The notes beneath the pieces were generated by a model. It ran no database searches, was not told the DNA's origin, and saw only the letters and a program-made list of their open reading frames with translations. Position numbers and translations under genes: made by a program. From IMG/VR virus record IMGVR_UViG_3300010391_000058, positions 19,490 to 83,489 of that record: 64,000 bases of DNA. One strand, 5' to 3'. Within the stretch, counting starts at the first letter, position 1. Every line of letters starts with the position of its first letter. Source of the DNA: a virus. This document shows positions 12,237 through 47,301 of the stretch, in pieces.

Positions 12237-12575
12237 ATGACTACTCAAAACTTCGCAACAACTACAGTTACCTGGAAAGTGAATAAAAAGGTAAGCGCCT
12301 TAAAAACATCCCTTGCAAAAGAGCTGCCAGGTATCACAAACGAAACTATTAAAAAACTATTTGGCCGGCTTCCTTCAGGATGTAACCCCCGTGAAAAGTA
12401 CAGCGGTTTTATTACATTAACCAACGATTCAGAACCGGTAAAAGAGGCAAACAGCCCTTTTGAAGGTTCCGGTATATATACCCTATACTGTGCAAATGGT
12501 AAATGGAGGATAGGGGGGTTTTTCAAAAATCAATTTACGGATCAGCTTGCTGAGTATATAAACAGCAATAAATAA
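12237..12575 (+). CDS. Hypothetical protein (motif within the 5' coding end)
   Basis: 112 aa from the ATG at 12237. The longer frame back to 11940 would start upstream of the promoter and reads poorly. Sequence: WKVNKKVSALKTSLAKELPG, then a globular part with LYCANGKWRIGGFFKNQF. The element AACTTCGCA lies at codons 5-7 rather than before the start. Function unknown. Confidence 0.6.
   Translation: MTTQNFATTTVTWKVNKKVSALKTSLAKELPGITNETIKKLFGRLPSGCNPREKYSGFITLTNDSEPVKEANSPFEGSGIYTLYCANGKWRIGGFFKNQFTDQLAEYINSNK
12249..12257 (+). promoter_or_regulatory. CTTCGCA element inside CDS
   Basis: AACTTCGCA 13-21 bases into the gene at 12237, within the expected ribosome footprint. Nine bases complementary to the RNA loop at 48736-48746. 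Confidence 0.5.
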
Positions 12576-12592
12576 ATTTCATTCACTTCAAA

Positions 12593-12603
12593 AACTTCGC
12601 ACA
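12593..12603 (+). promoter_or_regulatory. CTTCGCA leader element
   Basis: AACTTCGCACA, all 11 bases complementary to the RNA loop at 48736-48746; one base separates it from the ATG at 12605. Confidence 0.75.
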
Positions 12604-12604
12604 A

Positions 12605-12835
12605 ATGAAAGTCATAAAACAGCCCTTTATCGGGCAACCTACAAACCAGGCAACCGGGTGCAGCGGCATTCAGGCGCTGGTGGAATCCATTTACATTCCA
12701 TACAGGGGCCAATTAATTGAACGGACATTAACCGGGTTTTCAGTAGATGGTGCCCCGGTGGGATCAGTGGAGGCAGCTAAGGAGCTGATAGATGGAAAGC
12801 GGGCATGGCAGGGGAAATCAGTAGTTAACTTTTAA
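12605..12835 (+). CDS. Hypothetical protein with CTTCGCA leader
   Basis: 76 aa. Contains GQPTNQATGCSGIQALVESI and a C-terminal DGKRAWQGKSVVNF. No recognisable domain. The start is fixed by the leader element. It ends just before the leader of the next gene, so both are probably co-transcribed from the promoter at 12160 but individually controlled at translation. Confidence 0.65.
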   Translation: MKVIKQPFIGQPTNQATGCSGIQALVESIYIPYRGQLIERTLTGFSVDGAPVGSVEAAKELIDGKRAWQGKSVVNF

Positions 12836-12843
12836 ACTTCGCA
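12835..12843 (+). promoter_or_regulatory. CTTCGCA leader element
   Basis: AACTTCGCA overlapping the stop of the previous gene, two bases before the ATG at 12846. Nine bases complementary to the RNA loop at 48736-48746. Confidence 0.7.
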
Positions 12844-12845
12844 AA

Positions 12846-13229
12846 ATGAAAATAACAGATACAGAAAAAAGAATATTGCAGAACCTACATTTGAAAGGAT
12901 GCACCGGAAAGATGGGATCACTTAATAAGGATCAACGGGGGAAGATATTAAAAGGCCTCCAGGATAAAGGATTGCTGGACAAAAATTGCCGGCCAACGCA
13001 AAAAGGCATTGAAGTTTCAGCCCCCTTTTATGTAGCGACAAATGAAGATAATTATGATGAGTGGGAGGGTGTTGTAATAGATAAGATCGAAGAGTTTTGC
13101 GAAGTAAGCCGGTCCGATGCTCAGGGTATTGTCGAAGCTCAGCCGTTTTACATGCAGCAGTGTTGGGCAAAAGGAATGACCGGCGAAGAGACAGCAAGGT
13201 TTATAGATGCAAGAAGTGTTGTAAAATAA
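12846..13229 (+). CDS. Winged-helix-like protein
   Basis: 127 aa. N-terminal half (TEKRILQNLHLKGCTG ... RGKILKGLQDKGLLDKN) looks like a helix-turn-helix/winged helix with LTxxG spacing. The C-terminal half is a separate small helical domain (SRSDAQGIVEAQPFYMQQCW). Possibly DNA-binding. Carries the CTTCGCA leader. Confidence 0.55.
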   Translation: MKITDTEKRILQNLHLKGCTGKMGSLNKDQRGKILKGLQDKGLLDKNCRPTQKGIEVSAPFYVATNEDNYDEWEGVVIDKIEEFCEVSRSDAQGIVEAQPFYMQQCWAKGMTGEETARFIDARSVVK

Positions 13230-13254
13230 TTTCGTAACAAATAAATTTTTTTAT

Positions 13255-13728
13255 ATGAATAAGCTTGGAGAAAGAAACTATCTTTTGCTCAGCCAGGGCG
13301 CAAAGACAACCGGCAACTATGTAGAGGCTTTTCACTATGCACAGGAGAGCTTGTATGTTCATGAGGCCGAAACCATTTATGCATTTTGTAAGTGGTGCCA
13401 GGAAGATACAGCAAACAGGTCATGGGGATCAGTTAACTATGAAATGAGATTTAAGCAGTTTTTGGAAGCAACGTTATCCAAAAACAAGTGTATGATATTT
13501 GAAGTTAAGAGAATAGAGCAAACCGTTGAAACCACTTTGATCGAAGCGGATAGCTTGGCAGAGGCAGAAGCTATTGCTGAAAAGGATCATGTATCATTCG
13601 GGAAAAATGAAGTTGTCAGTGCTGAAATTACCGCTGAGGAAGTAAATAAATTTCCAAAGGGCCGGATCATTTACACAGCTACAGGCTACAAAGATGCATC
13701 AGGAAAACAGCATGTTATAACAGGATAA
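13255..13728 (+). CDS. Hypothetical protein
   Basis: 157 aa. N-terminal TPR-like helices (GNYVEAFHYAQESLYVHEAETIYAFCKWC), then a beta segment (MIFEVKRIEQTVETTLIEADSLAEAEAIAEKD) like small phage DpnD/PcfM-type domains. No leader element. Located 10 bp before the cytosine methyltransferase. Confidence 0.6.
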   Translation: MNKLGERNYLLLSQGAKTTGNYVEAFHYAQESLYVHEAETIYAFCKWCQEDTANRSWGSVNYEMRFKQFLEATLSKNKCMIFEVKRIEQTVETTLIEADSLAEAEAIAEKDHVSFGKNEVVSAEITAEEVNKFPKGRIIYTATGYKDASGKQHVITG

Positions 13729-13737
13729 AAATTTTAT

Positions 13738-14532
13738 ATGTTTAAACCTACAGCGAAAGGATACTTCAGCGGATGCGGCGGCATGGAATTAGGAATGATG
13801 CAGGCCGGTGTAAATATTATTCAGTCGCTTGACCTGGACAAACGGGCCACAGATACAATGATTGCCAACCCCCATTATTTCAATCACCCCATTTTGCACA
13901 AGGACATAAAAGATATAACGGTATTGCAGCAACATAGAAGTGATATCATTATTGGCACTTATCCATGCACTAAGTATTCAACCATTGCAGATATTCACGG
14001 ATGCAGAACCGGTGATGATCTGTTTTTACATTTCTTCAGGCACATTGCAATAGAGCAACCGGAAATGTATGTGGTTGAGAATGTACCAGGGATGAAAAAG
14101 TTTCCTATTGTAATGGAAGCCATGACACGGCTACCACAGTACTACATTAACGTTTTTTGCCCGATGAAAACAACCAATTGGCTACCACAGAAAAGGGACC
14201 GGCTAATTTTGATAGGGACAAAGAAGCCATTTTTTATAATGGAGCCTTCACAGATAGCAAACCGTCCCAGGATCAAAGATCTTATGGAATCAAACCCGGA
14301 TATTAATATACCAAAGAATGTGCTGAGCCGATTGAAGGGTAAATACCGGGACCTCCCGATTATAGTTGATCCTGACCAGCCGGGAGCAATGGCCCCGACA
14401 TGTGTAGCTCATTATGCAAAGGATCAGGGCACACGGTTGGTAAAGGATAAGAAAGGGCATTTTGTAAATGTTCTGAATGTAAGAAGATGGCTTACTATGA
14501 CTTTGTTCCGAACAGTCTCAGTACACCGATAA
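13738..14532 (+). CDS. C5-cytosine DNA methyltransferase
   Basis: 264 aa with motif I FSGCGGMELG (10-19), motif IV TYPC with catalytic Cys77, motif VI ENV (114-116) and motif VIII PQKRDR (150-155). It would methylate C5 of cytosine in DNA, protecting phage DNA or priming it for further modification. It is short for the family, and motif X (GN-V) is not visible at the C-terminus; the last ~20 residues (RRWLTMTLFRTVSVHR) look out of frame with the family. A C-terminal frameshift or truncation is possible, so activity is uncertain. Confidence 0.85.
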   Translation: MFKPTAKGYFSGCGGMELGMMQAGVNIIQSLDLDKRATDTMIANPHYFNHPILHKDIKDITVLQQHRSDIIIGTYPCTKYSTIADIHGCRTGDDLFLHFFRHIAIEQPEMYVVENVPGMKKFPIVMEAMTRLPQYYINVFCPMKTTNWLPQKRDRLILIGTKKPFFIMEPSQIANRPRIKDLMESNPDINIPKNVLSRLKGKYRDLPIIVDPDQPGAMAPTCVAHYAKDQGTRLVKDKKGHFVNVLNVRRWLTMTLFRTVSVHR

Positions 14533-14589
14533 TAACCACTCCATGTTCACATGATTTTAAACAATATTGGAAACATTTTTAAATAATAA

Positions 14590-14600
14590 AACTTCGCACA
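14590..14600 (+). promoter_or_regulatory. CTTCGCA leader element
   Basis: AACTTCGCACA, one base before the ATG at 14602; all 11 bases complementary to the RNA loop at 48736-48746. Confidence 0.75.
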
Positions 14601-14601
14601 A

Positions 14602-15375
14602 ATGACAAAACAAGATGTATTAAAACAGTGTACCATTGAGGGTAATATAGTTCGCCTTCCAAACATTAAGCTGGACAGAAAACTTTATTTGGAAGTATCT
14701 ACAGCCCTTGGAGGCATAGCCGCTGGAGGGATCGGTGGCACATGGAACCGGCAGTTAAAAGGCTTTGTATTTGAAAAAGGATATGAGGATGAGCTTGCTT
14801 CACTCATGGCCAAAATATCGGGGGGAGAAAAAATAAACCTGCAGCAAGAATTTCAGTTTTTTGAAACACCGGATTTACTTGCTAATTGGCTGGTTGAATT
14901 AGCTGATCCTAAAATGACCGATTTTATACTGGAGCCCTCAGCAGGCCGGGGCGCAATTGTCAGGGCAATATGGAAAAGATTACCGGAAAAGATAATTTTT
15001 GGTTGTGAGATACAGCCATCTAATGTAAAAGCATTGAAGGCCATGGGTCCTTTCTATTCCAATATTACAGAAGATTTTTTGGAATTGGAGCCTTCATTAG
15101 AGTTATTCGATAAGATCATTGCAAACCCGCCTTTCAATAAGAACCAGGATATTGATCACATACAGCACATGTATAAATGCTGCAAACCAGGGGGCCGGAT
15201 CGTTTCAGTTGCAAGCAACCATTGGATGGAAGGGGGCAATAAAAAGGAAGCTGAATTCAGGGCCTGGTTATTCGGATTGAAAGCCAAAGTGCATGATATC
15301 GAAGAGGGAATATTTAAAGACAGCGGCACCATGGTAAGTACATGTGTGATCGTTATTGATAAACCTTTAAAATGA
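14602..15375 (+). CDS. Class I SAM methyltransferase, probable N6-adenine
   Basis: 257 aa. SAM-binding motif EPSAGRGAI (111-119) and catalytic NPPF (175-178) identify an amino-methyltransferase fold, most likely DNA adenine N6. N-terminal ~85 residues form a separate domain. It follows the C5 methyltransferase and carries a perfect CTTCGCA leader, so it may be switched off separately from its neighbour. Confidence 0.8.
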   Translation: MTKQDVLKQCTIEGNIVRLPNIKLDRKLYLEVSTALGGIAAGGIGGTWNRQLKGFVFEKGYEDELASLMAKISGGEKINLQQEFQFFETPDLLANWLVELADPKMTDFILEPSAGRGAIVRAIWKRLPEKIIFGCEIQPSNVKALKAMGPFYSNITEDFLELEPSLELFDKIIANPPFNKNQDIDHIQHMYKCCKPGGRIVSVASNHWMEGGNKKEAEFRAWLFGLKAKVHDIEEGIFKDSGTMVSTCVIVIDKPLK

Positions 15376-16016
15376 AAACTACACATTATACTAACGGATA
15401 TGGCGGGAAACTGAATTATGTAACCACTTGTGGTAAGGAAATTCACAGCCACAGCGAAACAGAATCAGCAACTATTGATCCATACAAAGTGACTTGCAAA
15501 GCCTGTAAGAAGTCGTTTGACTTTTTGGAGGATCTTTTACGAAAAGAAAGCGACCTTCCAGGCGTGAAGCGTAGAATATATCTTGAATCAGACGTTTTGC
15601 ATGCTACGGAATTAAGTAGAGCCCAAGATGAAGTTGGAGATTTGTGTTTAGAGAAAGGAGACAAATTTATCAGGCGGGTTTTTTCTGATGTGCTTGAATA
15701 TGCCTGGCATGATCTACCCGGAACATGGGAAGCAGTAAAAAAAGCAGATGAAATTTACTCCGATTCATCTTTGATCCCATTGGTTGGCGGTTCTTATTCA
15801 GGAGCTCCCGTTATTTTCAACGGTATGTGTGAGAGAGCAGTAAAAGAAAATATAAAAGGCAAGGACGTTTATATTCTGAATGAATTGAGTAATATATATT
15901 GGGATATGATTGATATTCCGATGATGAAAAAGGCATTTAAGTATAACAACCTGTTCATGTATAACAAAGAAAGAGAAATGATTAAAGTAGATATTTCCAA
16001 AATAAAAAAGAAATGA
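15372..16016 (+). CDS. Hypothetical protein with Cys pairs
   Basis: 214 aa; the start overlaps the methylase stop by 4 bases (ATGA). Residues 20-50 contain CGKEIHSHS and CKACKK, probably a zinc-binding site. The remainder is mixed helical with no known motif. Function unknown. Confidence 0.6.
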   Translation: MKTTHYTNGYGGKLNYVTTCGKEIHSHSETESATIDPYKVTCKACKKSFDFLEDLLRKESDLPGVKRRIYLESDVLHATELSRAQDEVGDLCLEKGDKFIRRVFSDVLEYAWHDLPGTWEAVKKADEIYSDSSLIPLVGGSYSGAPVIFNGMCERAVKENIKGKDVYILNELSNIYWDMIDIPMMKKAFKYNNLFMYNKEREMIKVDISKIKKK

Positions 16017-16017
16017 A

Positions 16018-16302
16018 ATGGCATTAGTAAGCTATGCAAAACAAATGTCTGAATTAGCAATAAAGGGGGCGAAGATTGCTAAGGAAAAAGGTATATTAGG
16101 CCAGTGTGGGAAGATGTGTGATACATGTGCCTTCAAATTGGATCAGAAACATAACCTTGATTACTTATTTGCAGCTGATCAGGCAGCCTTTCAGTTAATG
16201 TCAGAAGGTGAATTTTATTGTCATACACATGATTTCAAATGTGCTGATAAACCCTGTGCCGGCTTCACATTAGCAAAGCTTGTATTTGAAAAAGACGAAT
16301 GA
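16018..16302 (+). CDS. Cys-rich small protein
   Basis: 94 aa. CGKMCDTCAFK and a second cluster (CHTHDFKCADKPCAGF) give six Cys and two His, enough for one or two zinc ions or an iron-sulfur cluster. Overlaps the PAPS-reductase-like gene by 4 bases, suggesting a partnership, for example as a cofactor or electron-carrying subunit. Function not established. Confidence 0.6.
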   Translation: MALVSYAKQMSELAIKGAKIAKEKGILGQCGKMCDTCAFKLDQKHNLDYLFAADQAAFQLMSEGEFYCHTHDFKCADKPCAGFTLAKLVFEKDE

Positions 16303-17153
16303 GTTTAGAGTTAATCAATATGGCAATAGATCAGGGCGCTGTCCTTTACCCGAATGTTTCAGGGGGAAAGGACGGGCAGGCTATGGTAAAAACGATGATG
16401 AACAACGGCATTCCTATTGAAGGCCTTATCCATGCAGACCTTGGCAGGACAGAGTGGAAGGAGAGCATTGGCATGTGTGAAAAGCTTTCCAGGGAGACAG
16501 GGAAGCCGCTGCATGTAGTGAGAAGATCTGATGGCCGGGATATGATTGATCACTGGAGGCACCGGTTGAATCAATTGAAGGGCACCGGGAAACCTTTTTG
16601 GAGTAGTTCACAAAGCCGTTATTGCACCAGCGATATGAAGCGGGACCCTATAGATAAGTTTTACCGGAATTGCGGGCACAATTTTATAGTCAGCTGCGAA
16701 GGGATCAGGGGAGGCGAAAGCAAGCCACGGGCAAAGAAGATACCGTTAACAATTCGGACCAGGATAACGGCCCCGTATTACAAAGGAATGACCGTACAGG
16801 AAGCAATTGCAGCCTATAACCCTAAGCACCGTTTGGCGCTTACCTGGTACCCGATATTTCATTTTAGCCTGGAAGATGTTTTGGCCACATACGGCATGAA
16901 TTCGGCGGCGCTCCAGGTGTACCGGGATATTTACAAAGGGATCGGTAAAGTAATGGGTGGTTGGCCTTTTCATCCGGCATACGTTTATGGTAATAACCGG
17001 GTGAGTTGCGTGTTCTGCATCCTTGGTTGTAATAATGATCTGAAGGTAGGTGCAAAGCACCGGCCAGAGCTATTGAACATGATGATCGAAATGGAAGAGG
17101 AAGGGCAGGCAACTTTCAAAAATAACTTTTCACTCAAAGAATTATTGCAATGA
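16299..17153 (+). CDS. PAPS-reductase-like (PP-loop) protein
   Basis: 284 aa. N-terminal PP-loop SGGKDG (21-26; classical members have SGGKDS) in an adenine-nucleotide alpha-hydrolase fold, then YCTSDMKRDPID and a C-terminal CVFCILGC cluster. Phages often carry such phosphoadenosine-phosphosulfate-reductase-family proteins; some family members (DndC-like) take part in DNA sulfur modification, but no other Dnd gene is visible. Role: sulfur transfer or nucleotide activation, unproven. Confidence 0.8.
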   Translation: MSLELINMAIDQGAVLYPNVSGGKDGQAMVKTMMNNGIPIEGLIHADLGRTEWKESIGMCEKLSRETGKPLHVVRRSDGRDMIDHWRHRLNQLKGTGKPFWSSSQSRYCTSDMKRDPIDKFYRNCGHNFIVSCEGIRGGESKPRAKKIPLTIRTRITAPYYKGMTVQEAIAAYNPKHRLALTWYPIFHFSLEDVLATYGMNSAALQVYRDIYKGIGKVMGGWPFHPAYVYGNNRVSCVFCILGCNNDLKVGAKHRPELLNMMIEMEEEGQATFKNNFSLKELLQ

Positions 17154-17476
17154 AAGATAAGAACCCAAAACCATTGTCAGCAGAAATGCAAAGGGTATTG
17201 GCTATGCTGTCTGAATATGGATGCCTTGTTAGATACAAGGGAGGTTTTTGGCATAAAGAAAATGCTGAAATGGAACCATTATCAGGTGGTGGCCGTTCAC
17301 CCGATGGCGGGCAATACCCTCCAGGATATTGCGGCACACTTACAATTCAGGCTTTATTGAAAAGAGATCTGATAAAGGTTGATGAATCGAAGCCAATAAA
17401 TATGTTTCGGACTTTTCCGGTAAAAGTATCACTTAAAAAAGAAGCGAATGAAAAGAAGGAAAATGATAAGAGCTGA
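17150..17476 (+). CDS. Hypothetical protein
   Basis: 108 aa, starting within the stop of the PP-loop gene (4-bp overlap). Reads as a small winged-helix-like domain (MQRVLAMLSEYGCLVRYKGGFW) with a Gly-rich middle and a Lys-rich tail. Possibly DNA-binding; not recognised. Confidence 0.55.
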   Translation: MKDKNPKPLSAEMQRVLAMLSEYGCLVRYKGGFWHKENAEMEPLSGGGRSPDGGQYPPGYCGTLTIQALLKRDLIKVDESKPINMFRTFPVKVSLKKEANEKKENDKS

Positions 17477-17576
17477 GCGCCAATTTATCAGGGCTGGCAG
17501 AAAGCCATTATTGAGAAGGATAATTTATGAAGAGATAAAATATTGGAGACAGTTTAAAGACGGATTACCATTTTAA
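17448..17576 (+). CDS. Small very basic protein (42 aa)
   Basis: ORF overlapping the previous gene by 29 bp. The protein MKRRKMIRAERQFIRAGRK... is rich in Arg/Lys and ends FKDGLPF. A comparable basic micro-protein occurs at 30696-30806. Its position fits a real gene, but overlap and small size limit certainty. Confidence 0.45.
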   Translation: MKRRKMIRAERQFIRAGRKPLLRRIIYEEIKYWRQFKDGLPF

Positions 17577-17586
17577 AATCAATTTT

Positions 17587-17994
17587 ATGGATATAAAACT
17601 TATACCGATATCGGAACAAGATGGCCGGGCAATTTTTTTCCCGGAAGAATTACCAATAGGTGAATTCATTTCAATGAGGTTGCTTGAAAAGCATACTGAA
17701 AGCGGTAAAACAGCCGTTGCATGGCTTATAGAATTCCCGGAAGAGATTCATGCTAAAAGAGTAATGGTAAAAGCCACGGCTAAAATTGCTGATGGAATGT
17801 TAGGAGCTGTCCGGGGAGCATGCCTAAAGTTTGGCGATTGGGATAACTATAAAGACAAAATGGAATTTGAAAATCAAATGGTAGCCAGTTTTGTTGCTTC
17901 CATGACAGATGAGCAGAGGGTAGAATTGTTTTCGAAATACTGTAAGCACTGCGGCAGTGATGATCCGGGATGCCAGTGTATGAACGATGAATAG
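17587..17994 (+). CDS. Hypothetical protein with C-terminal zinc knuckle
   Basis: 135 aa. Globular N-terminus (GRAIFFPEELPIGEFISMRL ...), C-terminus CKHCGSDDPGCQC, a probable zinc-binding cluster. Ends with TAG. The next gene starts within or just after its stop. Function unknown. Confidence 0.6.
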   Translation: MDIKLIPISEQDGRAIFFPEELPIGEFISMRLLEKHTESGKTAVAWLIEFPEEIHAKRVMVKATAKIADGMLGAVRGACLKFGDWDNYKDKMEFENQMVASFVASMTDEQRVELFSKYCKHCGSDDPGCQCMNDE

Positions 17995-17995
17995 T

Positions 17996-18196
17996 ATGGA
18001 TGATCAAAAACCTATATTGGATGAGGAACGGAATAAGAAGATCTGTGTTAACCCGGATTGCGGAGTAGTTGTATTAAACCATGATTGGCACGAAAAGCAT
18101 TGCCGGGATTGCGGAACGATATTGGTAAAAATCAATCAAAGGACTTTTGAAAAGAAGTTCACAGGCAACCGGCAGGCTTATTATCTTGAATGTTAA
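17996..18196 (+). CDS. Zinc-ribbon protein
   Basis: 66 aa from the ATG at 17996 (17987 is also possible). CVNPDC, then HEKHCRDC: two Cys pairs with His form a zinc ribbon. Small phage zinc ribbons often bind nucleic acid or polymerase; no specific assignment. Confidence 0.6.
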   Translation: MDDQKPILDEERNKKICVNPDCGVVVLNHDWHEKHCRDCGTILVKINQRTFEKKFTGNRQAYYLEC

Positions 18197-18205
18197 AATC
18201 ACTAT

Positions 18206-18481
18206 ATGACTGAAGAGCAATTAAACCAAGAACGTGCAAAGATCGCTGAAGAGCTGAGAGCCCGGCGAAGGCACCTGAAATTGACACAGCGGGAGCTGGC
18301 TGAGCAGGTTGGCATGCAGGAGGCAACGATCAGTAAAATAGAAAATGGCGCTTTTTGGCCCAATATGAAGCAGTACGTTCTAATATTGAATGCCTTGCGG
18401 TTGGAGCGGTTGGAACCACTATGGCTGCCGGAAAGTTATTTGCCGCAATTACAAAAAAGATATCAAAAAAACATTAAATAG
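18206..18481 (+). CDS. XRE-family HTH regulator
   Basis: 91 aa. A Cro/CI-type helix-turn-helix spans about residues 14-67: LRARRRHLKLTQRELAEQVG, then MQEATISKIENGAFWPN. The short C-terminus has no ligand domain. A transcription regulator of phage genes; it is followed by a promoter and a gene with the CTTCGCA leader, which may be a target. Confidence 0.85.
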   Translation: MTEEQLNQERAKIAEELRARRRHLKLTQRELAEQVGMQEATISKIENGAFWPNMKQYVLILNALRLERLEPLWLPESYLPQLQKRYQKNIK

Positions 18482-18483
18482 TA

Positions 18484-18516
18484 CTTGGATAATACCACAA
18501 AATAACATTACCTTCA
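18484..18516 (+). promoter_or_regulatory. Promoter after XRE gene
   Basis: CTTG (18484-18487), 21 nt, TACCTTCA (18509-18516). It matches the layout of the promoter at 10915-10947, including the TTGGATAAT extension. The predicted transcript starts only about 15 nt before the ATG at 18539, so its leader consists mainly of the CTTCGCA element. Confidence 0.5.
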
Positions 18517-18526
18517 ATCTTTCAAA

Positions 18527-18535
18527 AACTTCGCA
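18527..18535 (+). promoter_or_regulatory. CTTCGCA leader element
   Basis: AACTTCGCA, three bases before the ATG at 18539; nine bases complementary to the RNA loop at 48736-48746. Confidence 0.7.
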
Positions 18536-18538
18536 TGC

Positions 18539-18781
18539 ATGGAAATACCTATTCAAATACTCGATAGCTGGAAGAAATTACGGAGCCATGGTGACGGTAA
18601 AAAGATCGTTAAAGCTAATAGTGGAAAGATTGGTGAAATAGACATTACCAGAGCTTTTAAAAATGGCAAGTGCTCAGATGATGTATTTGAGATCATAGGT
18701 AATTTTTACAAAGAAAAAGAACAACGGGTAGAAAAATATATGCCAGTGGTGGAGGATAAAGAAGAAGGGCCGGATGGCTAA
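18539..18781 (+). CDS. Hypothetical protein with CTTCGCA leader
   Basis: 80 aa. SHGDGKKIVKANSGKIGEID followed by TRAFKNGKCSDDVFEIIGNF and an acidic tail. Size and helix pattern resemble small phage DNA-associated proteins, but no family is recognised. Own promoter right after the XRE regulator. Confidence 0.6.
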   Translation: MEIPIQILDSWKKLRSHGDGKKIVKANSGKIGEIDITRAFKNGKCSDDVFEIIGNFYKEKEQRVEKYMPVVEDKEEGPDG

Positions 18782-23007: not shown

Positions 23008-23017
23008 AACTTCGCAC
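23008..23017 (+). promoter_or_regulatory. CTTCGCA leader element before GTG
   Basis: AACTTCGCAC, one base before the GTG at 23019; 10 bases complementary to the RNA loop at 48736-48746. It supports GTG as the true start. Confidence 0.75.
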
Positions 23018-23018: not shown

Positions 23019-23276
23019 GTGAGCAAGAAAAAAAGGGTAACACTGAATATAAACCTTGATGATATCAGGGCTCAGTACACGGGGTTTGTTTTTCATATCT
23101 TCCGCAACGGGACTAAAAGATTATTTAGAACTGTTAAGGTGACAGGCAATACAACTATTTTTAATCTTCCTGCCGGGGAGTATTTGTTTAAGCTTATTGT
23201 CCTCCATAGGAAAAAACATTGGTGGGAGGCAAGGGTTAAAACCGAAATTAAGTCCGGATATATAGCGGTACCATGA
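23019..23276 (+). CDS. Hypothetical protein, GTG start
   Basis: 85 aa: SKKKRVTLNINLDDIRAQYT and a beta-rich body (TVKVTGNTTIFNLPAGEYLF) resembling a small Ig-like or carboxypeptidase-regulatory-like fold. The start codon is supported by the leader element. Overlaps the NinB-like gene by 4 bases. Confidence 0.6.
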   Translation: MSKKKRVTLNINLDDIRAQYTGFVFHIFRNGTKRLFRTVKVTGNTTIFNLPAGEYLFKLIVLHRKKHWWEARVKTEIKSGYIAVP

Positions 23277-26443: not shown

Positions 26444-26743
26444 ATGAGTATAGAGATTACAGATAATCTATTAAAGGAATTGATTGAATTATGTAAGTGC
26501 GAAGTTTCAATCTCGGTGAATACTCATCGAAATTATTATGAAACAGTAGAAGATAACTTGCGTGATGTTATTGACAATAAGGAAGTATCTGATGAGGTGT
26601 ACCAGGAAATGAAAAGAAGAGACACTGTTATTCGTGTCCAAGCTTATCCGGATACTCCAGTCGGTTTTTACTCAGCATACCATTGGGATATCAGTATAGC
26701 ACTGCAGGAAGTTATTGAATCAATTAAAGCAGAAAGGAAGTAA
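26444..26743 (+). CDS. Hypothetical protein
   Basis: 99 aa. LLKELIELCKCEVSISVNTH, then VEDNLRDVIDNKEVSDEVYQ. Acidic, mixed alpha/beta. Its last base overlaps the helicase start. No family recognised. Confidence 0.55.
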   Translation: MSIEITDNLLKELIELCKCEVSISVNTHRNYYETVEDNLRDVIDNKEVSDEVYQEMKRRDTVIRVQAYPDTPVGFYSAYHWDISIALQEVIESIKAERK

Positions 26744-29623: not shown

Positions 29624-29997
29624 TAAACGCAAGTGAATTAAGAATCGGAAATTTTGTATTGAACGGAAACGGTAAGTATACAAAAATCACTTACCATGAA
29701 ATAAGGTACGCCCAAATTTATCCAGATAATAATTACAACCCAATTCCGCTTACCCCTGAAATATTAGAAAAAAGTGGGTTTAAAAAGATTCAGGACTCTT
29801 TTGACCGTGCGGAATGGAGTAAATTAACCACTGGTAAAATTGTGAGCCTTCAACAAGATGGAGTGCCTGGTAATTTTGAAGCCATTAAACAGCCTTTTAT
29901 TTTTAAGTGGGATTGGCTTGAAGAAGCGAAGATTCAAATTACACACTTACACCAACTTCAAAACCTTTACTTTGCATTAACAAATTCTGAATTATAG
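29620..29997 (+). CDS. Conserved phage protein (LRIGN family)
   Basis: 125 aa. Starts NASELRIGNFVLNG, has PIPLTPEILEKSGFKK and ends LHQLQNLYFALTNSEL. This pattern is very common in Bacteroidetes phages and mobile elements, usually annotated hypothetical. A host-range clue rather than a functional one. Confidence 0.75.
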   Translation: MINASELRIGNFVLNGNGKYTKITYHEIRYAQIYPDNNYNPIPLTPEILEKSGFKKIQDSFDRAEWSKLTTGKIVSLQQDGVPGNFEAIKQPFIFKWDWLEEAKIQITHLHQLQNLYFALTNSEL

Positions 29998-41664: not shown

Positions 41665-41758
41665 GTGGGGTAAAAATGCACGACTTTTTTCAAACTGAAC
41701 TTTCGATGCTTGACACCTACATGTTATTGATTGTAAGAATGATGTAAAAGAATTTGGA

Positions 41759-41842
41759 ATGTCAAGTGGAATATCAAAACAAAAGTGGTGTAAGAATACA
41801 GGAGAAAAAAACAAACTGACCAAAATGCTTGACCAGAGATGA
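41759..41842 (+). CDS. Very short ORF in gap (27 aa)
   Basis: ATG to a TGA that overlaps the next ATG (ATGA). Basic peptide SSGISKQKWCKNTGEKNKLT. Together with a 23-codon ORF just upstream (41676-41747) it may be what is left of one gene. The 174-bp gap holds nothing else recognisable. Confidence 0.3.
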   Translation: MSSGISKQKWCKNTGEKNKLTKMLDQR

Positions 41843-42042
41843 GCGCAGAAACAAAAGAGATAGTATTAATAGCGGATCGGAGTTGTAAGACATGTATCAA
41901 GAACGAAGTGTGCAGGCATTATTTCGATCTTCATAAATTAATAGGTGAAATGCCACAGCACGGAGCCCCGCATAAAACAGATATCTTATATGACTGTTTA
42001 GCAAATTCATGTTTGTTATTCCAAAAAAAGAAAACAAAATAA
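41839..42042 (+). CDS. Cys-rich small protein
   Basis: 67 aa. CKTCIKNEVCRHYFDLHKLI and later DCLANSC: five Cys and His, probably zinc-binding. Unknown function. Confidence 0.55.
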   Translation: MSAETKEIVLIADRSCKTCIKNEVCRHYFDLHKLIGEMPQHGAPHKTDILYDCLANSCLLFQKKKTK

Positions 42043-42049
42043 GTTCTAT

Positions 42050-42358
42050 ATGCTACTACAATTAGAAATGGATATTGATAAGGCAGATCAGCATTTCCAA
42101 CATGCCCCGCAATCTGTTATTGATGCTCATTTAAAAGAAAGGTGGACTAAGGAGTTTACAAAAGCAGTTTTCCCGATGGCCCCCTTTGCGCTTGTAAAAG
42201 GGGCACCGGGCAATGTTACCAGGTATCGAAGCGGTATATGTATTTTGGCTGAATCTCAGTTAAACCATACCTTAGACATGCTGAAGATATTGAAGGGGGT
42301 AAGTCCTGAGAGAGACAATATCATTGATGCGATCCGGGAAGAGCTTTTAAACCGATGA
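42050..42358 (+). CDS. Hypothetical protein
   Basis: 102 aa. IDKADQHFQHAPQSVIDAHL, GNVTRYRSGICILAESQLNH. Helical. A base separates it from the next ATG. Unknown. Confidence 0.5.
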   Translation: MLLQLEMDIDKADQHFQHAPQSVIDAHLKERWTKEFTKAVFPMAPFALVKGAPGNVTRYRSGICILAESQLNHTLDMLKILKGVSPERDNIIDAIREELLNR

Positions 42359-42359
42359 A

Positions 42360-42635
42360 ATGACAGCTGAACAAAAATATTCGAAAGCAATTGCAATAGC
42401 TGAATCGGTTACTGAGACGGCCACGGGGATTGTTCGTGAATTAAAGAAGCTACCGAAAGGGAAGCATAAGCGGAATGTATTTATAAAAACATACAATAGA
42501 AGGCCTGGCAATAAAAGGAAGCGGGCAATTGTTATGATGAATTCAAGCATGTCGGCAATGATGGGAGCTATGCAGGTGGCAATGATCATGCAGACACCAA
42601 TACCCAAATTAAAACCTGGAGGAATTGCGATATGA
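42360..42635 (+). CDS. Hypothetical protein
   Basis: 91 aa. SVTETATGIVRELKKLPKGK, basic KTYNRRPGNKRKRAIVMMNS, a Met/Ala-rich stretch (MSAMMGAMQVAMIMQTP) that could be an amphipathic membrane helix. Overlaps the following TM mini-gene by 4 bases. Confidence 0.5.
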   Translation: MTAEQKYSKAIAIAESVTETATGIVRELKKLPKGKHKRNVFIKTYNRRPGNKRKRAIVMMNSSMSAMMGAMQVAMIMQTPIPKLKPGGIAI

Positions 42636-42730
42636 AGGTTAAAAGCAAATGGTATTGGCATGGGTTATTCATCTTACTGATCCTTTGCTTAACATTTTTT
42701 GTTTTACTATTAACTGGAGCACTAAAATAA
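42632..42730 (+). CDS. Single-TM mini-protein (32 aa)
   Basis: ORF with ATGA overlap to the previous gene. Sequence is KVKSKWYWHG followed by a hydrophobic helix LFILLILCLTFFVLLLTG. The neat overlap and TM pattern argue for a real gene. Unknown role. Confidence 0.5.
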   Translation: MKVKSKWYWHGLFILLILCLTFFVLLLTGALK

Positions 42731-42739
42731 ACTTTATAT

Positions 42740-43363
42740 ATGAGTGAAGAGACTAATCAACCAGCTGCAACAGCCCTGGCACCGATTACATGGGAGCCAA
42801 AAAAAGTGTATGTAAAGGATTTGAAAGAAAATCCACAGAACCCCAAAATAATTACTGAAGCAGGTAGGCGGCGCTTGCATTTGTCTTTGGATAAATTCGG
42901 GTTGGCCGGCACCATGTCAGTGAATGATGATCTTACAATTATAGACGGTCATAGCCGAAAATCAGAATTGGAAATGAGGGGTATTGAAGAGGTTTGGGTA
43001 TCAGTTCCATCCAGGCCGTTGACAGATGAAGAGTATAAAGAAATGAATGCAATGTTTGATCATGCCAGGGCCGGAGAAGTAGATAAATTCATGACTGAAA
43101 ACCTTTTCAGGGATGAAATGCTGATTGAATGGGATTTGAAGAGCCCAAAAAAAGAGGCTGGAGAAAAAGGGTTGTTCCCGATTGTGCCGAAGTTCGATGA
43201 AAAGCATGATGCATTCGTTATAATCTGTCAAACGGAAAGTGAGATATCTTTTATTCAGAATGCATTGATGCTGGAAGAGAATAGCAGCTACAAAAATAAA
43301 AACACCGGTATCACATTTGTAACCACTGGAAAAAACTTTATTAAGGTATGGCAATCGAAATAA
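42740..43363 (+). CDS. ParB-like nuclease-domain protein
   Basis: 207 aa. VYVKDLKENPQNPKIITEAG, then DDLTIIDGHSRKSELEMRGI is a ParB/Srx-like core (NP-x-hydroxyl region and the GHxR-type loop). Phage ParB-like proteins often sit with DNA-modification genes. Overlaps the glycosyltransferase gene by 16 bp. Role uncertain. Confidence 0.75.
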   Translation: MSEETNQPAATALAPITWEPKKVYVKDLKENPQNPKIITEAGRRRLHLSLDKFGLAGTMSVNDDLTIIDGHSRKSELEMRGIEEVWVSVPSRPLTDEEYKEMNAMFDHARAGEVDKFMTENLFRDEMLIEWDLKSPKKEAGEKGLFPIVPKFDEKHDAFVIICQTESEISFIQNALMLEENSSYKNKNTGITFVTTGKNFIKVWQSK

Positions 43364-44076
43364 AGGTGGTGATCCCTTCAGCTGGAAGGCCCCATAGACA
43401 GAGCACAATAAAACATGTAGCCAATGCAATCATTTGTGTTCCGGAAAAGCAAAAGGCGCTGTATGAAGAGCGGAATAAGGATAATGAGATTGTGGCCCAC
43501 CCGGACAGCATTCTTGGTTTGGGGCCTAAAAGGAATTGGATCTATGAGAAGTTTGGAAACGTGTTTATGATAGATGATGATACCCATGGTTTGCAGCGGC
43601 TATATGAAACCAGGGTAACGATCTGCAGCCCTGAGCAGGCTTATGATATCATTCAGAGCCTTGGCAACCTGGCAAAGATATCCGGCAATTATTTATATGG
43701 CTTTTCGAAGTATGCAAACACCCTCCAATATACAGGCCTGAAGCCATTTGCGTTGACCGGTTACATCAATGGAGTTGGTATTGGGTTGATCGAAAAGAGC
43801 CTGTTGAAGTTTTCAGATAAAATAACATGCAACAACGATGTTTTCATTTCATGTTTGAATGCTCACTATTACCATACATGCTTTATTGATACCAGGTTTT
43901 CATTTAAACAGGATGGAGTGAATAAGGGTGTTGGTGGTATGTCGTTGATCAGGAACCCGGAAACTGATAAAAATGATATTGAATTTTTAAAAAAGTCATT
44001 TGGCAGTGTGCTAAAGTTTAAGCAGCGGGCAGGATCAGCGAAGCAATGGAACATAATGTTGAAACTTCCTTTTTAA
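43348..44076 (+). CDS. TET-associated-type glycosyltransferase
   Basis: 242 aa. VVIPSAGRPHRQSTIKHVAN, IVAHPDSILGLGPKRNWIYE and VFMIDDDTHGL (DDD metal-binding motif) match the GT-A-like phage family known as TET-associated glycosyltransferases, which decorate hydroxymethylated bases in phage DNA. The upstream ParB-like gene and the C5 methyltransferase at 13738 fit base hypermodification, but no TET-type oxygenase was found in the window. Confidence 0.7.
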   Translation: MAIEIKVVIPSAGRPHRQSTIKHVANAIICVPEKQKALYEERNKDNEIVAHPDSILGLGPKRNWIYEKFGNVFMIDDDTHGLQRLYETRVTICSPEQAYDIIQSLGNLAKISGNYLYGFSKYANTLQYTGLKPFALTGYINGVGIGLIEKSLLKFSDKITCNNDVFISCLNAHYYHTCFIDTRFSFKQDGVNKGVGGMSLIRNPETDKNDIEFLKKSFGSVLKFKQRAGSAKQWNIMLKLPF

Positions 44077-44107
44077 GGGCTGCACTCAGCAATTGTGCTA
44101 AAATCTG

Positions 44108-44266
44108 ATGCAAGAAATGTGGCTTCCTTGGACGATCAGGCAATTTTCAGCATTACCTACACAAAAGAAAGTGCTTGCTAGAATTGAAGCTAATGGCCTC
44201 CCAGGTCATTTTTGGGGGTTTAGGGCCCCCGGAACCGGTCAAAATATGACTTCCCCCGGCAATTGA
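44108..44266 (+). CDS. Possible small gene (52 aa)
   Basis: ORF in the 343-bp gap before control module A: LPWTIRQFSALPTQKKVLAR then a Gly/Pro/Phe-rich end (GLPGHFWGFRAPGTGQN). Its stop codon lies inside the first 16-bp repeat of the module. Composition looks protein-like, but there is no further support. Confidence 0.3.
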   Translation: MQEMWLPWTIRQFSALPTQKKVLARIEANGLPGHFWGFRAPGTGQNMTSPGN

Positions 44267-44301
44267 TTCATTTTCAGGGCCTCATAATTGATTCATTTTC
44301 A
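44261..44301 (+). repeat. Paired 16-bp operator-like repeats, module A
   Basis: AATTGATTCATTTTCA at 44261-44276 and again at 44286-44301: identical copies, 25-bp period. Module B at 46420-46460 has the same pair with the same period. The second copy starts 72 bp before TATATTTG in both modules, as expected for regulator binding sites. Confidence 0.7.
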
Positions 44302-44339
44302 ATAAAGAATTTACTATAATTTATTGATTTACAATAGTA

Positions 44340-44398
44340 TTGGATCAATCAGGTTGCTATATTTGATTTATCAAAGAGGGATAAAGACCCCGATTTTT
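44340..44398 (+). promoter_or_regulatory. Module A promoter and leader hairpin
   Basis: TTGG (44340-44343) and TATATTTG (44358-44365) within GGTTGCTATATTTG. The leader then holds GGG - ataaaga - CCC followed by CGATTTTT (44378-44398), a small attenuator-like hairpin, before the CTTCGCA-type element and the ATG at 44420. Confidence 0.65.
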
Positions 44399-44407
44399 AA
44401 ACTTAAA

Positions 44408-44416
44408 AACTCCGCA
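44408..44416 (+). promoter_or_regulatory. CTTCGCA-type leader element (variant)
   Basis: AACTCCGCA, three bases before the ATG at 44420. One base differs from the other copies, leaving an interrupted match to the RNA loop at 48736-48746. Confidence 0.6.
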
Positions 44417-44419
44417 ATC

Positions 44420-44656
44420 ATGTCAACGAAAATCATTTTAAAAAAAGAGTGGACTTCAAAAGTAACTTTGTCAAATAGCCAGGTGCTAGTTGTAAAATGG
44501 GTTGCTGCCCTTTCAAAGAAAGGTTCTTTCATTATAGCCAATTTCGTAGGTGACAGTAAAAAAATGTCAGTATATCAGCGGGGAATGTCTTGGTCAAAAG
44601 ATCACTTCTTTTTCTTTGATGCCGTAAAAAGAGCCAAAAAAAACTTACCCCGATAA
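44420..44656 (+). CDS. Hypothetical protein, first gene of module A operon
   Basis: 78 aa from the ATG at 44420, fixed by the leader element. KEWTSKVTLSNSQVLVVKWV, FIIANFVGDSKKMSVYQRGM: a small beta-rich basic protein. Strong dedicated control region suggests a dose-critical product. Function unknown. Confidence 0.65.
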   Translation: MSTKIILKKEWTSKVTLSNSQVLVVKWVAALSKKGSFIIANFVGDSKKMSVYQRGMSWSKDHFFFFDAVKRAKKNLPR

Positions 44657-44674
44657 TCAATTTATAAACCTAAA

Positions 44675-44685
44675 AACTTCGCACA
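44675..44685 (+). promoter_or_regulatory. CTTCGCA leader element
   Basis: AACTTCGCACA, one base before the ATG at 44687; all 11 bases complementary to the RNA loop at 48736-48746. Confidence 0.75.
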
Positions 44686-44686
44686 A

Positions 44687-44998
44687 ATGAAAAATACACC
44701 TCAAAAAACCTTTACGGCAATAATGAATGTTTGCCAGGTAAACAACTTCCTTTCTTCAGCCACAAACATGTGGTGCAATTCAGTAGATGAACTCAGGACG
44801 TTCAAAAAGTTCATCCGCATTGAAGAGACAAAACCGTATGACCAGTTGACTGATAAAAATACATTCGTTTCCGCTCAGGAATTACGGGAGTACATGCCGG
44901 CGCAATTATTCAGAGAAATGGAATGTGTGGTTGTCACCTGTCTTATTGAACAGCGGTGGATTGTTGAAATTAAACCTATAAACTCAGTTGTATGTTAG
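44687..44998 (+). CDS. Hypothetical protein with CTTCGCA leader
   Basis: 103 aa. MNVCQVNNFLSSATNMWCNS, TFKKFIRIEETKPYDQLTDK, CVVVTCLIEQRWIVEIKPIN. Mixed alpha/beta, several Cys without zinc spacing. Unknown. The following 44-aa gene overlaps by 7 bp. Confidence 0.6.
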   Translation: MKNTPQKTFTAIMNVCQVNNFLSSATNMWCNSVDELRTFKKFIRIEETKPYDQLTDKNTFVSAQELREYMPAQLFREMECVVVTCLIEQRWIVEIKPINSVVC

Positions 44999-45126
44999 TA
45001 GTTAAAACCCAGGCCGAAATTGATGAAATGAAAGAAACGGATAGCTATAAAAATGGTGATATCAAGATTATCAGCACAAAAGATATTGGAAACGGCCTGT
45101 TTGAATTGATATTGGAAATCAATTAA
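44992..45126 (+). CDS. Hypothetical small protein (44 aa)
   Basis: ORF overlapping the previous stop: KTQAEIDEMKETDSYKNGDI, then IISTKDIGNGLFELILEIN. The alternation of charge and hydrophobics is protein-like. Unknown function. Confidence 0.55.
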   Translation: MLVVKTQAEIDEMKETDSYKNGDIKIISTKDIGNGLFELILEIN

Positions 45127-45163
45127 CCTTCAAAGTGTCTCTTATTTTTAAACCATAAATAAA

Positions 45164-45172
45164 AACTTCGCA
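45164..45172 (+). promoter_or_regulatory. CTTCGCA leader element
   Basis: AACTTCGCA directly abutting the ATG at 45173; nine bases complementary to the RNA loop at 48736-48746. Confidence 0.7.
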
Positions 45173-46294
45173 ATGAAAAAAACAAGTAAGGCCCCTGCAG
45201 CCAAAAGTGCAGGAAAAAAAGTGATCAATGTAAAGACAGTGGTGACTACCACAACCAAGATGCCCAAAGCCAAAAAGGAAAAGAGCACGGTGCCAGGGTT
45301 TGAAAACCTTCCTGCCGATGCGGTTGAATTCGAAACTCCGGCCCTGGTAGTTGATATGCTACAAACCAATGATGTAAGCGGTGGATCAGTGCTTACCCAG
45401 GTGCCTGAGCCGGAACCAAAAACAGCTCAGGAAATATTTTTGGCAAAGGAGAAAAAGGCAGCTTTGAAAAATGATAACATCTTTATTGATGTTAAGCTGG
45501 AAAACCTTTCTAATCTTACCGGGTTGAAAGTAAGGAAGGGCTTCAGTAAGGTAGTTGTGGCTGAGGGTGAAATAGTAAATGTAGTTAGTCCGAATTACTT
45601 CCTTTTAAAGAATGAAGATTTTTTCCTGGAAGTCGAAAAGAAGTTGATGGAGGCTGATATCAAATACATCAGCAGATCAATTAACCGGCAGAACAGTGAT
45701 TTTGCAGTTGATTACATTTTAGCTGATGAGAATTACCATGTGGATGTAAAAGGCGGGAAAGATAAAATTATCCCGATGCTGAGATTTACGAACATGTACG
45801 GTGGTGGCCCATGTACCGGGAAGTTCGGATTTTTCAGGGAAGTATGTGCCAACGGATTGCATGTTGCCGAAACTAAAGTTGGCTTCAGGATTGGACACAG
45901 GATCAACAGATCAGAGTTGATAATGCCGAACATTAAAGAGCTGGTGGGCCAGTTTTTAAGCAATGAATTTTATAGCCTGCACAAAAAGTTCAAAGTACTT
46001 GCTGAAACCCCGATCACAGACCTGAGTGAATTCGTAAAGTTCACATGTACAAAAATGGATCTGTTTAAGTATGAAGCCAGTGAAAAGAACCCGGATACCC
46101 CAAGTGCAAAAGCTCAGTTGGTGATGGATACCATTTTAGCTGAAAGTAAGGAGTTGGGTGTTGAACCGAATCTTTGGATTGGATACAATGCCTTCAATGT
46201 AGCGGTGCATAGCAGCAATAAGAAGGCCTTCAGTAAGCAAATGAAAACTGATGGTGTTTTATTCAATACGGTTTATGAAATGGCTGCGAATTAA
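45173..46294 (+). CDS. DUF932-like protein
   Basis: 373 aa. After a Lys/Thr/Ala-rich leader (residues 1-80) the folded region has LTGLKVRKGFSKVVVAEGEI, FRIGHRINRSELIMPNIKEL and FGFFREVCANGLHVAET, the conserved CxNGL-type core of DUF932 phage/plasmid proteins. Function of the family is unknown; it is often highly expressed in mobile elements. Followed by a strong terminator. Confidence 0.75.
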   Translation: MKKTSKAPAAKSAGKKVINVKTVVTTTTKMPKAKKEKSTVPGFENLPADAVEFETPALVVDMLQTNDVSGGSVLTQVPEPEPKTAQEIFLAKEKKAALKNDNIFIDVKLENLSNLTGLKVRKGFSKVVVAEGEIVNVVSPNYFLLKNEDFFLEVEKKLMEADIKYISRSINRQNSDFAVDYILADENYHVDVKGGKDKIIPMLRFTNMYGGGPCTGKFGFFREVCANGLHVAETKVGFRIGHRINRSELIMPNIKELVGQFLSNEFYSLHKKFKVLAETPITDLSEFVKFTCTKMDLFKYEASEKNPDTPSAKAQLVMDTILAESKELGVEPNLWIGYNAFNVAVHSSNKKAFSKQMKTDGVLFNTVYEMAAN

Positions 46295-46318
46295 TTAGGA
46301 CGGTCAATAGTAGATGAA

Positions 46319-46346
46319 ACCCCTGGCAGTTTGCCGGGGGTTTTTT
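46319..46346 (+). terminator. Strong intrinsic terminator
   Basis: ACCCCTGGCA / TGCCGGGGGT, 10 bp with one G-U, followed by TTTTTT. Ends the module A operon. Confidence 0.9.
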
Positions 46347-46419
46347 ATTCAGGTAAGGCACAATAAAGAGGGCCGGGAAACGGCAGGAAACAGGCCTAAA
46401 ACCAGGTAAAAGTGTGTTT

Positions 46420-46460
46420 AACTGATTCATTTTTAAGGCTTCATAACTGATTCATTCTCA
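46420..46460 (+). repeat. Paired 16-bp operator-like repeats, module B
   Basis: AACTGATTCATTTTTA (46420-46435) and AACTGATTCATTCTCA (46445-46460), 25-bp period, near-copies of the module A pair at 44261-44301. Confidence 0.7.
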
Positions 46461-46497
46461 ATCCGTGTTTTTATATAATATATTGAAATACAGGTAC

Positions 46498-46559
46498 TTT
46501 GGATTAAAAGCCTTGCTATATTTGAAAGATCAAAGGGGGAAAAGAAAACCCCGATTTTT
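46498..46559 (+). promoter_or_regulatory. Module B promoter and leader hairpin
   Basis: TTTG (46498-46501), 15 nt, TATATTTG (46517-46524) in CCTTGCTATATTTG. The leader contains GGGG - gaaaagaaa-type loop - CCCC (46536-46552) followed by GATTTTT, again attenuator-like. The arrangement parallels module A at 44340-44398. Confidence 0.65.
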
Positions 46560-46569
46560 AAACCTCAAA

Positions 46570-46579
46570 AACTTCGCAC
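46570..46579 (+). promoter_or_regulatory. CTTCGCA leader element
   Basis: AACTTCGCAC, one base before the ATG at 46581; 10 bases complementary to the RNA loop at 48736-48746. Confidence 0.75.
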
Positions 46580-46580
46580 T

Positions 46581-46934
46581 ATGTTACATTATTCAAAAAT
46601 GATAGACCTTCTGGAAATGCCAGGTACAAAGCAAATGCTGATTAATTATTATACGGGCAAAGCTTCAGGAACGGATGTAAAAAAATACTTTGCGGATCAT
46701 ATAGCCGGGATGGATGATTTTTACCGGAATGCCTTTAATTCATATTTAAGCGATTTGCCGGAAAGTTATTTGGATGATGATTCAATTGAATCGTCAAATT
46801 CAAAGCTAAGTGGTATTTACGATTTTGATTTTGATGAAGCTCCGGAAGGATTGCAGGATAGGGCCGAAATTATCCGGTGGGATATATGCCGTGTTGTTAT
46901 ATCATTTTACCAGGGCCAAAAACAAACAGTATAA
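46581..46934 (+). CDS. Hypothetical acidic protein, module B operon
   Basis: 117 aa. MIDLLEMPGTKQMLINYYTG, then acidic SYLDDDSIESSNSK and GIYDFDFDEAPEGLQDRAEI. The strong negative charge is seen in DNA-mimic or inhibitor proteins, but that is speculation. Function unknown. Confidence 0.6.
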   Translation: MLHYSKMIDLLEMPGTKQMLINYYTGKASGTDVKKYFADHIAGMDDFYRNAFNSYLSDLPESYLDDDSIESSNSKLSGIYDFDFDEAPEGLQDRAEIIRWDICRVVISFYQGQKQTV

Positions 46935-46949
46935 TTATCAACCTCTAAA

Positions 46950-46959
46950 AACTTCGCAC
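46950..46959 (+). promoter_or_regulatory. CTTCGCA leader element
   Basis: AACTTCGCAC, one base before the ATG at 46961; 10 bases complementary to the RNA loop at 48736-48746. Confidence 0.75.
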
Positions 46960-46960
46960 C

Positions 46961-47275
46961 ATGGCAAAGCCGACACTATTACCGGATGAAACTTTTTCAG
47001 TAGTAACCTTTTCCAGGGAATCACTTGAAAAACAAACTGATACTTTATTAACGGACACGTTGATAAATTTCGAAACCAATTATGCGCCTCTTTATCTGCA
47101 TAATGAAATTGGATCTGGAGTACATTTATTCAGCAGGGAGGTGTTAACCAGGCTTTGCGAAGGCAAAGAGGATGTTATGGCAATACCGGGCTATGCTGAG
47201 ATGAAAGCAGACCTGGAAGAGATAGGCCGGATCATGGATGAGCAGAAAGCCACTTATTTCCGGGTGGTAAAATAA
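46961..47275 (+). CDS. Hypothetical protein with CTTCGCA leader
   Basis: 104 aa. FSRESLEKQTDTLLTDTLIN, APLYLHNEIGSGVHLFSREV, MKADLEEIGRIMDEQKATYF. Cytosolic, helical C-terminus. Unknown. Confidence 0.6.
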   Translation: MAKPTLLPDETFSVVTFSRESLEKQTDTLLTDTLINFETNYAPLYLHNEIGSGVHLFSREVLTRLCEGKEDVMAIPGYAEMKADLEEIGRIMDEQKATYFRVVK

Positions 47276-47290
47276 AATATTAATCATTAA

Positions 47291-47301
47291 AACTTCGCAC
47301 A
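47291..47301 (+). promoter_or_regulatory. CTTCGCA leader element
   Basis: AACTTCGCACA whose last A is the A of the ATG at 47301; all 11 bases complementary to the RNA loop at 48736-48746, so pairing would cover the start codon. Confidence 0.75.

Follow-up and report, generated by a model that had tools for sequence, protein, structure and literature searches.

We found that a phage genome carries a nine-letter tag, AACTTCGCA, directly before the start codons of otherwise unrelated genes and, in the loop of one non-coding hairpin that is followed by a terminator, the exact complement of that tag. Both the start-codon tag and the matching antisense hairpin are real; translational repression of a regulon by their pairing is a likely inference. 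Our preferred reading is that one antisense RNA occludes the start-proximal tag and represses an early/accessory phage regulon, a reading that we hold with moderate confidence (probability about 0.62) and whose function is untested.

The window is the whole stretch of DNA that was analysed, 64,000 nucleotides, which are bases 19490-83489 of an 83,489-bp virus record. We found 11 exact + strand copies of the tag in the whole record, and 10 of them end 0-3 nt 5' of an ORF start (nine ATG and one GTG, the latter at 23019). The eleventh lies inside a coding sequence, at codons 5-7 (+13..+21) of gene 12237-12575 (MTTQNFAT...), and a one-mismatch tag, AACTCCGCA, at 44408 precedes the start at 44420. 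The sites are as follows.

12249..12257, + strand: tag inside a coding sequence, codons 5-7 of gene 12237-12575
12593..12601, + strand: tag 3 nt before ATG 12605; 11-nt sRNA complement
12835..12843, + strand: tag 2 nt before ATG 12846, sharing bases with the stop codon of the gene before it
14590..14598, + strand: tag 3 nt before ATG 14602 (N6 adenine methyltransferase-like); 11-nt complement
18527..18535, + strand: tag 3 nt before ATG 18539
23008..23016, + strand: tag 2 nt before GTG 23019; 10-nt complement
44408..44416, + strand: variant tag AACTCCGCA 3 nt before ATG 44420; sRNA pairing interrupted
44675..44683, + strand: tag 3 nt before ATG 44687; 11-nt complement
45164..45172, + strand: tag abutting ATG 45173 (DUF932 protein), 0 nt gap
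46570..46578, + strand: tag 2 nt before ATG 46581; 10-nt complement
46950..46958, + strand: tag 2 nt before ATG 46961; 10-nt complement
47291..47299, + strand: tag 1 nt before ATG 47301 (MgsA_C-like protein); 11-nt complement

Every instance of the tag followed by 0-3 nt and ATG or GTG is an ORF start (10/10), and the tag stands before no non-start ATG among the 2057 + strand ATGs of the record. The identical 9-mer precedes 10 of 134 ORF starts, against at most three in dinucleotide shuffles of the upstream regions (n = 300), and no rival 9-mer comes near this count before starts. The window-wide count with up to one mismatch (22 versus 12.5 expected) is by itself only mildly unusual; the signal is the placement before starts. 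The - strand has three exact copies and no start follows any of them: one forms the RNA loop at 48738, and those at 26498 and -320 (the latter outside the window) are both within coding sequence.

We found only A/T-rich sequence 5' of the tag and no shared upstream inverted repeat at the tag sites, a common leader being limited to two promoter modules; 3' of the tag, the tenth base is C at seven of the ten start-proximal copies. The tag fails as a Shine-Dalgarno sequence (a complement of the 16S 3' tail, 5-10 nt before the start) by both sequence and spacing, and AACTTCGCA lacks a purine-rich core. Tags are confined to 12-23 kb and 44-47 kb and to non-structural genes, which is a criterion of the SAS type of element described below, and most phage genes have none. 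The tagged proteins are mutually dissimilar; family matches were obtained for the methyltransferase, the DUF932 protein and the protein with an MgsA C-terminal domain, the others being without significant match. Many neighbouring genes are untagged, mostly those overlapping or abutting the preceding gene, and some tags are within operons, 10-30 nt after the preceding gene. An earlier note, made from the letters alone, had located these copies, including the one at 44408 with one base changed and the one before GTG 23019, had given the 0-3 nt spacing (held for the 10 exact copies), and had claimed that the element marks true starts, is no Shine-Dalgarno sequence and precedes otherwise unrelated genes. 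All of these claims held.

The complement of the tag is displayed by a predicted small RNA, whose 5' end is approximate. Its parts are as follows.

48708..48715, + strand: TATATTTG, -7 box of the sRNA promoter
48719..48786, + strand: predicted sRNA of ~68 nt; fold -33.4 kcal/mol, z -3.7
48725..48754, + strand: hairpin UCCCUGG-(16 nt)-CCAGGGA presenting the antisense loop, from the fold
48738..48746, + strand: TGCGAAGTT, exact tag complement in the loop
48756..48786, + strand: intrinsic terminator (hairpin + U7), resembling terminators of Chitinophagaceae genomes

None of 200 shuffles was as stable as the sRNA fold (-33.4 kcal/mol), which places the antisense bases in the apical loop region. 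An 11-nt version of the loop, UGUGCGAAGUU, starts at 48736; of the exact tag sites, four are complementary to the loop over 9 nt, three over 10 nt and four over 11 nt, and the tenth tag base C (7/10 sites) matches a loop G. We found TGCGAAGTT anywhere in non-coding sequence in 35 of 2000 shuffles and in a non-coding hairpin in only 9 (~0.5%), and the 11-mer in 1 of 2000. In a partial ranking of + strand non-coding words by their complementarity to start regions, this loop came first, with 10 starts, and the runners-up were mostly A/T-rich words with no more than about six starts. Two coding regions likewise contain a 9-nt antisense complement, by chance. A cmscan of the window at gathering thresholds assigned the sRNA to no Rfam family, c4 included.

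The computed gain from pairing with the sRNA structure retained is modest (-1 to -7 kcal/mol), and the loop may close a 3-bp inner stem (ACU/AGU), which pairing must open. The tags are fairly unpaired in their own mRNAs, with a mean unpaired probability of 0.52-0.86 compared to a median of 0.59 at other starts. Judged by sequence only, the RNA meets the sequence criteria for a trans-acting antisense sRNA: its own promoter, an intrinsic terminator and an exposed region complementary to initiation regions over 9-11 nt at 11 sites. The proposal in the earlier note that the tag is the target of an RNA at about 48722 is thus supported as probable by the promoter box, the hairpin, the terminator and the exact-complement loop; its claim of a common translation control signal is still an inference, with no expression data and no relative that has the system.

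The RNA and three tagged operons have the same promoter box, TATATTTG, which matches the Bacteroidota -7 consensus TAnnTTTG (PMC7366714). Of its six + strand copies, three stand before tagged operons, one before the RNA and one before gene 60342; the sixth is inside a coding sequence. The copies upstream of tagged operons are as follows.

12179..12186, + strand: TATATTTG box of the 12.2-kb tagged operon
44358..44365, + strand: TATATTTG box of the 44.4-kb tagged operon
46517..46524, + strand: TATATTTG box of the 46.6-kb tagged operon

Between promoter and tag, the leaders at 44374-44402 and 46533-46559 have in common a G-run/C-run hairpin and then ATTTTT, which may stabilise the 5' end or act as an attenuator; a related hairpin, GGG/CCC, is present in the 12.2-kb leader. 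Upstream of the 44.4- and 46.6-kb promoters are TGATTCATTTT-like repeats in tandem pairs 25 bp apart (44264-44310 and 46423-46470), which, as inferred from their sequence, are likely shared operators for a phage regulator.

Since the ends of the record repeat over 99 bp (a direct terminal repeat, record 1-99 = 83391-83489), the assembly is likely circular and probably complete. The record encodes a terminase, a portal protein, an Erf recombinase, helicases and several DNA methyltransferases, along with a TET-associated glycosyltransferase and a UDP-galactopyranose mutase; a Pfam scan of the proteins, which did not cover the record's left third, found neither an integrase nor a bS21 family member. 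Shine-Dalgarno sequences are nearly absent (2/108 phage genes versus 4/108 at a control position), and Shine-Dalgarno pairing is not used by Bacteroidia ribosomes (PMC9976891). Because of the promoter boxes, the scarce Shine-Dalgarno sequences, the terminase kinship and the terminator style, we infer from sequence that the host is likely one of the Bacteroidota; that it belongs to the Chitinophagaceae is a possibility.

The tag is private to the phage when compared to genomes of its probable host family. We counted AAAACTTCGCA-(0-3 nt)-ATG 8 times in the 83-kb record versus ~76 times in 396 genomes (the family of one Chitinophagaceae assembly), where tag plus ATG was neither clustered nor in excess over a reversed-pattern control. 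Hence, the tag is a phage device, and a general host start signal is ruled out by these genomes of one family, which stand for the probable host family, the true host not being established. Equal frequency of the motif before non-start ATGs or in unrelated genomes, which would have refuted the start-signal claim, was checked and neither was seen.

We found no relative with the tag or the RNA in IMG/VR, GTDB samples, INPHARED or PLSDB; the collections searched may omit records very near the window. No tag cluster was present in 14 records or genomes holding terminase relatives, and relatives reached through the terminase, DUF932, MgsA_C, portal and methyltransferase proteins (best ~40-60% identity) had neither the tag nor an alternative start element in common. 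Scanning IMG/VR for tag plus ATG gave at least 119 stretches, and no fetched locus had a second convincing tag before a start. The pattern of promoter plus loop gave six matches, five of them one homologous coding sequence. BLAST with the sRNA gave nothing useful against phages and plasmids and, against genomes, nearly only matches to the generic terminator. A copy of GCTCAAAA at one locus (L133) was a coincidence within a coding sequence. Without a close relative in these collections, the match of tag and loop rests on this one genome and has no support from co-variation.

In the mechanism that we propose, AACTTCGCA(C) would be a start-proximal address common to ~12 early/accessory genes of a Bacteroidota phage, and a trans-acting RNA of ~68 nt, with a promoter of its own at 48708 and the intrinsic terminator at its end, would display UGUGCGAAGUU in its hairpin loop. 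The loop would pair over 9-11 nt with mRNA positions of about -12 to -1 (+13 to +21 in gene 12237), and the duplex would block 30S binding and lower translation of all tagged genes together. Pairing at +13 to +21 is still in the region where pairing blocks initiation. That the RNA is transcribed, that it pairs in the cell, that it represses and when it does so are all inferred only, with no expression data. We prefer repression for three reasons: a duplex at -12 to -1 would overlap the footprint of the ribosome; structure does not hide the tags; and there are precedents, in that the Bacteroides sRNA GibS acts as a repressor by pairing across start codons (PMC7366714) and the loops of phage c4 RNA block a ribosome-binding site (PMC12197685). 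The RNA may serve to shut off early genes with a delay, while it builds up, or, alternatively, to silence a further genome of this phage that enters the cell. These are the likeliest uses because the RNA and the three target operons carry the same -7 box; both remain possible, and the data do not separate them.

One unlikely rival is that the tag boosts translation by pairing with host rRNA outside the anti-Shine-Dalgarno (e.g. 16S UUGCGAAGGC, helix 23a), the hairpin being coincidental; the earlier note had offered rRNA pairing as an alternative. In its favour, a Chitinophagaceae 16S contains TTGCGAAGGCAG, 7-8 nt complementary to CTTCGCA(A) (the match being UUGCGAAG), and Bacteroidia ribosomes do without Shine-Dalgarno pairing (PMC9976891). 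Against it, genomes of the probable host family do not use the motif before starts, their ~76 tag-plus-ATG places in 396 genomes being unclustered and without excess over the reversed-pattern control, and most phage genes are untagged. In addition, the tenth base is C in 7/10 and so follows the sRNA, whereas 16S would favour A, and mRNA at -12 to -1 sits in the ribosome's own mRNA channel.

We also consider it unlikely that a phage protein of the RegA kind, which regulates translation by binding RNA, recognises the tag, the hairpin being either unrelated or itself under regulation as a transcript; binding by a phage protein was the other alternative of the earlier note. The position over the initiation region fits a protein repressor, and most phage proteins have no assigned function. 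However, the one free-standing non-coding hairpin shows the exact complement rather than a copy of the tag, which this rival leaves unexplained. Similarly doubtful is that the pairing is real and activates translation or stabilises the mRNA, e.g. through protection of the message or an accessible start region. Some sRNAs do activate, and sequence alone does not give the sign of regulation, but the tags abut starts and are already fairly unpaired, leaving little structure to relieve, and 30S subunits should be unable to bind where a duplex covers -12 to -1. Also unlikely, and the weakest of these rivals, is a DNA-level element (an operator, part of a promoter for leaderless transcripts or a gene-cassette recombination junction), which would suit copies in one orientation at gene boundaries before unrelated genes but conflicts with spacing fixed to the start codon rather than to a promoter, with copies inside operons 10-30 nt after the previous gene and once within a coding sequence, and with the absence of any TATATTTG box at leaderless spacing to the tags, and which leaves the RNA complement unexplained.

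The closest known elements are the Start-Associated Sequences (SAS) of Cluster K mycobacteriophages. SAS GGGATAGGAGCCC is present in 11-19 copies before the starts of non-structural genes and absent from the hosts; its function is unknown, and its authors left open whether RNA or protein binds it (PMC3203893). A SAS-like element is found in Cluster EF Microbacterium phages (PMC7302621). Like the tag, SAS (Cluster K/EF) is short and asymmetric, has ~10-19 copies a few nt before starts in one orientation, precedes unrelated non-structural genes and is absent from the host. Unlike the tag, SAS has a Shine-Dalgarno core (AGGAG) and often an upstream 17-bp inverted repeat (ESAS, at about half of the sites).

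The Cluster K authors noted a single reverse SAS in K1 phages with no gene beside it (PMC3203893). We found that in K1 phages and Amelie the sole reverse copy is in the apical loop of a conserved intergenic hairpin, just as one reverse copy of the tag is in a hairpin loop here. The reverse SAS of Anaya (record 59870, one mismatch) falls exactly in the loop of the hairpin CGCGCGG-CCTCCTATCC-CCGCGC, within an intergenic gap of 385 nt; this region (29843-29914 of locus L189, 59842-59913 of the Anaya record) may be an antisense partner of SAS. Angelica, Ganymede, Murucutumbu, Guanica15, Niklas and Amelie retain both the hairpin and the loop core CTCCTATCC; in Hammy the hairpin is kept and the loop altered. 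The stem bases vary, with 95.7% of cells pairing versus 36-49% for slid versions and two pairs changed on both sides; as covariation this is weak, since the eight sequences, Hammy among them, are related. Likeness of the loop to the 16S anti-Shine-Dalgarno (CCUCCU) is a possible alternative reason for its conservation. No anti-SAS hairpin was found in Keshu, Pixie, Yuna, ZoeJ or AnnaSerena, and SAS itself was confirmed in the last four. Hence, an antisense partner is not universal in SAS systems. A reverse SAS core in ZoeJ was rejected as antisense, as it belongs to a reverse-strand gene. The K1 anti-SAS hairpin was not described in the literature searched, whose coverage was incomplete.

Other systems resemble the RNA or the tag in part. 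The c4 antisense RNA of P1/P7 (PMC12197685) is also phage-encoded, with loops that pair around the ribosome-binding site and block translation, but it is described with one target (ant mRNA), whereas here one loop matches ~11 scattered genes. GibS and other Bacteroides sRNAs (PMC7366714) are likewise trans-acting, with their own promoter and terminator and start-region pairing, and GibS and the phage sRNA alike belong to a phylum in which Shine-Dalgarno sequences are not used. GibS pairs through a long, unstructured seed at its 5' end and has few targets, all in the host, whereas the phage sRNA presents a hairpin loop to one identical target repeated in the phage. The TAACTGA repeats of Beggiatoaceae and some Bacteroidetes, for which a post-transcriptional role was proposed (PMC4679880), also lie just upstream of the starts of unrelated genes; unlike the tag, they are tandem heptamer arrays in cellular genomes, and no complementary RNA is proposed in the relevant sections of that paper.

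What is new here is the combination of two known kinds of element, a start-associated repeat and a phage antisense RNA. Phage start-associated repeats have been known since 2011 without a function, and here a matching RNA is in the same genome. As Bacteroidota ribosomes ignore Shine-Dalgarno sequences, a private tag would let one RNA address the phage genes while sparing those of the host. We use address-and-antisense for a phage-private sequence at many starts together with one complementary-loop hairpin RNA controlling the regulon. A bolder reading, which we can offer only as a possibility, is that such systems evolved repeatedly in phages of unrelated hosts; if this is true, the K1 phages, with SAS and one reverse copy of it, would provide a second example, and this would offer an answer to what SAS does there.

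The sRNA adjoins a phage-carried UDP-galactopyranose mutase gene (PF03275; 48785-49876, - strand). The window also has genes for a C5-cytosine methyltransferase (13738-14532), a TET-associated/HMC-type glycosyltransferase (43348-44076) and a PAPS-reductase-like protein (16299-17153), and these three suggest that the phage DNA may be modified.
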